From assembly GCA_007131175.1 (NCBI GenBank), contig SLRC01000039.1:1-33159 (forward strand): DNA of 33,159 bases. The letters run 5' to 3'. The notes below the pieces were generated by a model. It worked only from the letters and a program-made list of their open reading frames with translations, searched no databases and was not told the DNA's origin. The position numbers and the translations under genes were made by a program. Below are positions 6,747-16,832 of this stretch, one piece after another (positions within the stretch are counted from its first letter, which is position 1; every line of letters begins with the position of its first letter). Origin of the DNA: Syntrophomonadaceae bacterium. Lineage in GTDB: Bacteria; Bacillota; Dethiobacteria; DTU022; UBA8154.

Positions 6747-6789
6747 TTGGGAGTAATAGATTCCCTGTCATTTGGTTAATCTATTAGGG

Positions 6790-7218
6790 AAGAAAGGTCC
6801 ATAATGACCGGGCCAAGATTGCGGTAAGGTCAATCAGGCTTTATCGCAGTCGGCCAAAGGCTGATAGCAGGTCTATACGGCTTGTTATCAGCCGGCGGGA
6901 AGATCATGTTATGTTCCGCCATGGCCCTGGAATGGTCAGTGAAGACCGTTTTAGGGTCAATAAGGAATATAACATGGTCGAGCGCAGATCAGTATAAGTT
7001 CCCGTTATGAAAAGATATTTTCAACCTGTGTAAACACATTGAGGATAAAGGAGACCGGTAATGGTCGGAAGATCATTGCCGGTTTCCCCGGGGATTTATA
7101 CTGGTCGAGCCAAGGTTACGGCAGGTTCAAAATGCGGTCTGTTACAGTCAAAGGATTGTAACAGGCTGTAAAGAGGATTTGCCGTAGCCGGAAGCAAAGG
7201 TCATTATGGGCTTTTCTT
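6790..7218 (+). ncRNA. Large multi-arm structured RNA, family not recognised
   Basis: A 20-bp helix (6790-6809 with 7199-7218, two G-U) encloses five arms. P2: 6817-6827/6841-6851, 11 bp, plus GGCC 6811-6814/6852-6855. P3: 6859-6869/6883-6893, 11 bp. P4: 6902-6917/6964-6979, 16 bp, carrying 6923-6937/6944-6958, 15 bp with loop AGUGAA. P5: 6987-7004/7089-7106, 18 bp, carrying small hairpins near 7008-7038 and P6, 7050-7063/7074-7087, 14 bp. P7: 7114-7128/7175-7189, 15 bp, then a 4x4 A-rich internal loop, then 7133-7146/7157-7170, 14 bp. Every imperfect pair in these helices (about 23) is G-U on the plus strand, none A-C, which indicates selection on a plus-strand RNA and not on DNA palindromes. 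P2 and P3 share 13-base loops; P6 and the P7 tip share 10-base loops. A pyrimidine-rich tail (7211-7229) follows. It lacks tRNA-like ends and does not look to me like RNase P, SRP or tmRNA. Confidence 0.8.
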
Positions 7219-7440
7219 TTTACTTTTTCTGCTAGAAAGGTGTCCTCCGATACGGCCCGTTTGCCGGGAAGTTAGGCCTCCCCAACCTTTTTCTTTGACT
7301 TCATCCATAAGACCCAATTCAAGGGCAACCTCGTTTTTAAGCCGATCTTTCAATGCATCCTCTTTATTAACCTTTTTTTTCTTTGGTGTCAAATAACTAA
7401 CCCCCCATTTTTTTCTTATTCTTGCCGGGGGGTAAAACAT
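7204..7440 (-). CDS. Small acid-soluble spore protein, alpha/beta type
   Basis: 78 residues if the ATG at 7440 is used. The core LKNEVALELGLMDEVKEK followed by GWGGLTSRQTGRIGGHLSSR matches the two conserved blocks of alpha/beta SASPs, which coat and protect DNA in dormant spores and are cut by the Gpr protease at the first block. The C-terminus is lysine-rich. The start is uncertain: the ATG lies 10 bases after the selD stop with only a poor GGAA site. A TTG at 7392 preceded by GGGGGG gives a 62-residue protein beginning MTPKKKKVNKED, closer to the usual SASP length. The last five codons and the stop form one strand of the closing helix of the opposite-strand structured RNA. Confidence 0.82.
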   Translation of the reverse strand: MFYPPARIRKKWGVSYLTPKKKKVNKEDALKDRLKNEVALELGLMDEVKEKGWGGLTSRQTGRIGGHLSSRKSKKKSP

Positions 7441-16411: not shown

Positions 16412-16732
16412 TTACGCCTTGCCTGTCTCGATTTTCTCAATAAATAGTTCAGTATAAGGTTGACGGTGGCCTTGTTTGCGTCGATAGTTTTTCTTAGCCT
16501 TGTATTTATAGACAATGATTTTTCGGCCCTTACCGTGTGCTTTTACCTTGGCCCTGATGCAAGCTCCGGCAATATAGGGACTGCCAACTTCCACCTCTTC
16601 ACCATTACCCACAACCAACACCCGTTCAAGCATAACATCTGAACCCACCGCGTCAGGCAACAGCTCCACTTGTAAGGTAACTCCCTCAGATACGCGGTAC
16701 TGCTTCCCTCCAGTTTCAATAATAGCGTACAT
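16412..16732 (-). CDS. rplU: 50S ribosomal protein L21
   Basis: 106 residues; [17 protein letters not shown] at the start and [19 protein letters not shown] near the end are L21 signatures. It binds 23S rRNA in the large subunit. It is the first gene of the rplU-prp-rpmA transcript, with a clear promoter and a leader that probably gives autogenous control. A GAGGGA ribosome site precedes the ATG. Confidence 0.97.
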
Positions 16733-16755
16733 GCAAAATCCCTCTTTTTTATCAG

Positions 16756-16826
16756 GCTCGCCGTTCAGGGCAATCTTGTTTCATTTTGAAAGATATTTAA
16801 AACCCTGTCCGTGCGGCTAAACAAGC
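16756..16826 (-). ncRNA. Probable L21 leader (autoregulatory)
   Basis: Between promoter and rplU, the minus strand has GCCG (16814-16817) and CAGGG (16803-16807) pairing with CCCTG (16766-16770) and CGGC (16760-16763), separated by an AT-rich loop of about 30 bases. The position and the CCCTGAACGGCGAGCC 3' strand resemble the L21 leader of Firmicutes as I recall it. Confidence 0.6.
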
Positions 16827-16832
16827 TCAATC

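Follow-up and report, generated by a model that had tools for sequence, protein, structure and literature searches.

A six-armed structured RNA of Bacillota built on a repeated 15-bp wobble module, with a putative forespore promoter

What kind of RNA is encoded at about 6792-7217 (+) of the window (the whole 33,159-nucleotide stretch of Syntrophomonadaceae DNA that was analysed), of which parts is it built and what might it do in the cell? A first-pass annotation, made from the letters alone, had described within it two classes of hairpins with matching loops. The element behaves as a stand-alone, strand-specific structured RNA: the minimum free energy (MFE) of the + strand is -257.7 kcal/mol (z = -22), while that of the reverse strand is only -143.5 (z = -8.9). 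Its parts are collected in table 1. The true 5′ end lies probably a few bases before the aligned start, near 6790, and at the other end P1 with the T-run that follows it looks like the transcription terminator of the RNA; in Desulfotomaculum-type relatives it is a separate hairpin that comes next instead.

Table 1. Features of the RNA locus in the window; paired strands are separated by a slash.
Feature	Position	Strand	Details and evidence
Putative forespore (sigma-F/G type) promoter	6754-6783	+	TAATA 6754-6758, 15-nt spacer, GGTTAATCTA 6774-6783
Structured RNA as aligned	6792-7217	+	426 nt; fold z -22, 35-sequence alignment A1, covariation
P1 5′ strand, flipped module	6795-6809	+	partner 7199-7213; covariation, wobble analysis, distant matches
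Linker J1/2	6810-6816	+	GGGCCAA; wobble-module layout
P2 arm	6817-6851	+	module 6817-6831 / 6837-6851, loop AAUCA; covariation, wobble layout
Linker J2/3	6852-6858	+	GGCCAAA; wobble-module layout
P3 arm	6859-6893	+	module 6859-6873 / 6879-6893, loop UAUAC; covariation, wobble layout
Linker J3/4	6894-6901	+	GGCGGGAA; wobble-module layout
P4/P5 arm	6902-6979	+	P4 module 6902-6916 / 6965-6979, internal loop, flipped P5 module 6923-6937 / 6944-6958; covariation, wobble layout
Linker J4/6	6980-6986	+	GAGCGCA; wobble-module layout
P6 arm	6987-7106	+	P6a module 6987-7001 / 7092-7106, variable insert, flipped P6b module 7052-7066 / 7071-7085, GGAA loop; covariation, wobble layout
Linker J6/7	7107-7113	+	GAGCCAA; wobble-module layout
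P7 arm	7114-7189	+	P7a module 7114-7128 / 7175-7189, internal loop, flipped P7b module 7135-7149 / 7154-7168, AAAG loop; covariation, wobble layout
Linker J7/1	7190-7198	+	GGAAGCAAA; wobble-module layout
P1 3′ strand, then T-run	7199-7228	+	sequence

Relatives were found by blastn in 27 of the 99 genomes searched, the window's own genome, which holds a single copy, being counted. Alignment A1 comprises 35 full copies (L016, L024 and L029 were not used), L036 and two tandem copies were left out of alignment A3, and L039, L042 and L044 were dropped as chance matches with no RNA around them. On A1 the nine-helix structure is paired in 97.4% of 4,709 cells and double changes occur at 95 of the 135 pairs; in 500 shuffles none of these measures was equalled, and when the partners are slid by one column, pairing falls to about 41-44%.

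A covariance model limited to the 5′ domain (R1, i.e. the P1 5′ strand, P2 and P3) matches in 38 of 97 genomes of the class, in 26 of 245 of another class and in 142 of 398 genomes of the phylum Bacillota, five of these positives being weak (E 1e-5 to 1e-3; G122, G144, G216, G397 and G468). Carriers include Desulfofundulus thermosubterraneus, D. australicus, Desulfotruncus arcticus, Sporotomaculum syntrophicum and a Dethiobacter metagenome-assembled genome (MAG); Desulfotruncus belongs to the Clostridia and Dethiobacter to the Dethiobacteria, both within Bacillota. Two MAGs named 'Desulfovibrio' (L030, L037) hold this Bacillota RNA next to HutP genes, and their labels are probably wrong. In 63 distant matches P1 pairs at 15/15 positions in 58 and at 14/15 in three, and is unconvincing in two, one of which (L148_2698) is an internal match of an RNA already counted; no convincing P1 3′ strand was found in L143. 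Tandem copies about 0.5 kb apart are present in G020 (L006/L028) and in Sporotomaculum syntrophicum (L046), two copies lie 2.6 and 6.7 kb apart in L099 and L137, respectively, and the longest form seen, L036 (506 nt as cut), has a P3 loop of 57 nt and a large insert in P6.

With the helices so defined, the hairpin classes described at first take on a different aspect. In P2 and P3, GGUCAAUCAGGCU (6828-6840) and GGUCUAUACGGCU (6870-6882) do cap 11-bp stems, as had been reported, but they are not 13-base loops: in both the MFE fold and the covariation the pattern GGUC-N5-GGCU adds four pairs (G.U, G-C, U.G and C-G), so that each of the two helices is 15 bp long and capped by a 5-nt loop. Likewise, GUCGGAAGAU (7064-7073) and GUCAAAGGAU (7147-7156) are found at the tips of P6b and P7b, as stated, but the supposed 10-base loops add three pairs, GUC with GAU, and leave 4-nt loops. 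The suggestion that the loops are functional did not survive the inspection of their conservation, which led to conserved loops being rejected: among the 35 homologues there are 31 different sequences of the P2 loop, of 2 to 10 nt, and 32 of the P3 loop, of 3 to 57 nt, and the P6b and P7b loops, usually of 4 nt and often GNRA-like, come in 15 and 18 different sequences. Docking or multimer contact, which had been ascribed to the loops, might take place through the paired modules instead. The count of about ten GGUC in the element was right, as there are exactly ten (at 6796, 6828, 6870, 6934, 6955, 6976, 7063, 7103, 7136 and 7199) against a shuffle mean of 2.2, and the idea of a recurring functional GGUC element is supported in so far as they are paired wobble motifs rather than loops. 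The proposed pairing of AGCCG with the P3 loop was abandoned, both sides being strands of conserved, covarying helices (the P7a 3′ strand and the P3 stem); AGCCG itself lies at 7186-7190, one base from where it had been placed.

The unit that recurs is the helix. All nine helices are copies of a single 15-bp module with wobble pairs in one orientation at positions 3 (U.G, mean 75% of cells), 12 (G.U, 93%) and 14 (U.G, 93%), the mean wobble share at any other position being at most 16%. When positions are permuted within helices, the observed wobble statistic of 192 is reached in none of 20,000 trials (maximum 110), and it drops to 104 if P1, P5, P6b and P7b are left unflipped. The consensus of the top strand is about GRUY-N7-GKUC; the seven central pairs covary freely, and the 11 bp from position 3 to position 14 make about one A-form turn. 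The conservation of the wobbles also indicates that the RNA is read from the + strand, since the opposite strand would have C-A mismatches. Growth by duplication of modules, as first supposed, is therefore strongly supported, with a different unit, namely this 15-bp wobble module in nine copies; a model of P2-P3 also picks up the RNA's own 3′ part (window 7092-7204, for instance, at E 1.8e-6). The distant set carries the same modules, although few recognizable ones (0-3) are present in the MFE fold of 13 of 96 distant relatives, a count made without L143 and without L148_2698, the second match in L148.

As to the overall architecture, the RNA is a pseudo-six-fold star of nine modules on a six-way junction, which six modules and six GAGCNAA-like linkers surround. 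Position 1 of the module faces the central junction in P1, P2, P3, P4, P6a and P7a, and the hairpin loop in P5, P6b and P7b, so that in three of the arms two modules are joined tail to tail. All six linkers resemble one another (GNGCCNA, GGCCAAA, GGNGGGNA, GAGCNAA, GAGCNAA and a looser J7/1, GNAGNNNA). A relative of 291 nt, L124 (genome G239), has no more than the six arms and six linkers of this kind (GAGCAAA, GAGCAAA, GGAGCGAA, GAGCCAA, GGGCAAA and GGCGCGAA), with the full wobble triad in four of the six arms, positions 3 and 12 in P4 and position 3 only in P6. In the light of this minimal form, the six-arm star looks like the core, to which the second modules would have been added; the reverse order, in which they were lost, is possible.

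What best explains these features as a whole, at a probability of about 0.5 and with a presumed partner and function, is an RNA of the forespore that acts as a scaffold or sponge through nine equal docking modules. In this mechanism, the sigma-F (or sigma-G) RNA polymerase of the forespore would read a stand-alone noncoding RNA gene on the + strand and stop just past the closing helix. All modules would be equivalent docking sites, recognized through the minor groove along a single helical turn, and the RNA would gather several copies of one partner during spore development, perhaps around its six-fold centre. It would then work like the CsrB/RsmZ-type sponges, in which many copies of a motif, GGA in loops, titrate a protein; here the motif is a paired wobble module. 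For multivalent docking by the modules the odds appear roughly even, and the conserved wobbles could equally serve RNA-RNA packing instead.

Such packing is the main alternative, and a rather unlikely one: the modules would pack through their G.U minor grooves within or between copies, with no special protein, into a compact particle or a homo-oligomer such as OLE, ROOL and GOLLD make. The wobbles, being 11 bp apart, share one face of the helix, the repeated identical lengths would suit packing in bundles, and large ornate RNAs of such kind assemble without protein, according to the relevant part of PMC12286853. The contacts named in that part are, however, kissing loops and A-minor contacts, while the RNA described here has freely varying P2 and P3 loops. 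It is mainly because the hairpin loops are free that a protein-binding scaffold or sponge is favoured over an RNA-only particle, on evidence that is not decisive.

The link to the forespore comes from the promoter and from the distribution of the RNA. Just upstream of the RNA, at a near-constant distance, the pattern GNATA-N14/15-GGNNANANTR is found. Scored with what we take to be the sigma-F consensus letters, 69 of 97 copies (L148_2698 excluded) reach at least 9/10, compared with 1.75% of shuffles and, for 3,720 genomic stretches taken at random from the same loci, 0.8%. The choice of the pattern with the sequences already in view makes this a weaker test, but the distance between copies and controls is large. 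The 80-nt promoter controls do not include L036, which was too short. Patterns presumed to represent the sigA, E, K and H consensus were not enriched upstream of the copies. Both the 14-15-nt spacing of the pattern and the upstream G of its -10 element match what PMC5942855 and PMC3789822 describe for sigma-F promoters.

When the same 398 genomes were sorted by their best match to TIGR02885 (340 below 1e-75 and 58 above 1e-60, the cut being set after the gap in E-values was seen), the RNA was present in 141 of the 340 with forespore-type sigma and in one of the 58 without (Fisher test, p 3.9e-11, which ignores phylogeny), the sole exception being a bin 61% complete. In the other 199 sigma-F/G genomes no match was obtained, through true absence or as an effect of the 5′-domain-only model. 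Promoter and distribution together make it quite probable that the RNA is transcribed in the forespore. That it is instead a housekeeping large RNA unconnected with sporulation, whose promoter merely resembles sigma-F sites, is unlikely: the window's own promoter is indeed weaker than that of most copies, with 8/10 consensus positions, but the sigA pattern is not enriched and 141 of the 142 RNA-positive genomes carry forespore sigma genes. The promoter would tie the RNA to endospore formation, a process in which few RNAs have, to our knowledge, known roles.

As for the partner, a dedicated one might be sought in the HutP family of RNA-binding proteins, HutP being a hexamer that binds NAG triplets and that could sit as a ring on six AAG-ended linkers. 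A HutP-family gene (PF09021) lies downstream of the RNA in 10 of the 27 loci of the window's relatives (L007-L010, L014, L015, L019, L020, L022 and L026). Among sigma-F/G genomes, HutP is found in 119 RNA-positive ones and missing from 22, the corresponding figures for RNA-negative ones being 126 and 73 (p 1.6e-5, ignoring phylogeny). Nevertheless, the adjacency is confined to the window's class, 11 of the 58 genomes that lack forespore sigma have HutP as well, and the 22 of 142 RNA-positive genomes without it include nearly complete ones as well as the window's own (77% complete), in which it was not found. HutP was therefore rejected as an obligate partner, and as a dedicated one it is improbable. 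Hfq, the other hexameric candidate, is carried by 90 of the 96 genomes in the class and cannot discriminate.

The RNA of the window is flanked by a radical-SAM/B12 gene, which has the same orientation, and a SelD-like (AIRS) gene on the opposite strand, with a ThiF gene also nearby; histidine-use genes with NAG triplets, as for a hut-leader antiterminator, are not among these neighbours. Neighbours differ from lineage to lineage, with no fixed gene beside the RNA, and this, together with the single copy in its own genome and the lack of matches in plasmids, phages and viral contigs, is why it is considered a stand-alone gene; the last two observations also led to a mobile element being discarded. 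A cis-acting leader or riboswitch is very improbable and was rejected on the differing neighbours, since, despite some loci with a same-strand gene starting less than 200 bp away, P1 and the T-run end the transcript, downstream genes vary and are often on the opposite strand, as in the window, and no conserved same-strand downstream gene was seen across the loci examined. A genuine leader, that of ribosomal protein L21 (RF00559, 39.2 bits), occurs elsewhere in the window at 16744-16828 (-), upstream of an L21-like gene (16412-16732).

With Rfam 15, no family was found on this RNA in the whole window at gathering score or in 20 of 60 distant loci, and the element gave three chance-level matches only at E up to 10; none of OLE, ROOL, GOLLD, raiA, 6S, RNase P, tmRNA and others matched. 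No description of the RNA was found in the literature, supplements, and hence any supplement-only motif, lying outside the search. In size the RNA can be grouped loosely with the large ornate RNAs, but no tested feature fits any of their families; it is for its repeated-module, six-fold design that we call it a new kind of RNA, and on a stricter view it could be a new family inside the loose kind 'large structured RNA'. We would tentatively go further, to a new class based on a repeat code: a pseudo-six-fold star, each arm a multiple of the 15-bp wobble module, which many spore-forming Bacillota would produce in the forespore as the RNA core of an assembly, such as a six-fold ring or a scaffold on which a spore-development protein gathers. 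An RNA of about 400 nt carried by more than one third of the sampled Bacillota genomes (142/398) and not in Rfam 15 would rank among the more widespread uncharacterized bacterial RNAs, and its architecture is nearer to designed RNA nanostructures than to the known families compared.

Among known RNAs, CsfG, which we take to be RF00516 (the ylbH leader) from its ylbG-ylbH position, is noncoding like this RNA; RF00516 differs in having 122 positions in Rfam and in occurring in Bacilli beside ylbG. Identity with CsfG was rejected, as RF00516 matched neither the window, the element nor the distant loci tested, and R1 matched none of 13 of the 25 ylbG loci fetched. No ylbG was found in the class of G443; the gene was located in a Bacilli class. 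In L157, L160 and L162 an RF00516 'leader' lies near ylbG, the reported location of the CsfG sRNA, and is probably CsfG. The part of PMC9147052 on this forespore sRNA of Bacillus places it under sigma-F/G control. The raiA motif, or ModT RNA, is a widespread structured RNA of Bacillota in the account of it in PMC11706538, and differs in that no copy tested with Rfam 15 matched it. OLE, ROOL and GOLLD are, like this RNA, large, heavily structured, stand-alone and strongly covarying, with unclear function, but this RNA, besides matching no Rfam family, is built as a repeated 15-bp module around a six-way junction. In L143 an OLE RNA (741-1366, -) lies about 1.1 kb from the RNA described here, which starts at 2446.
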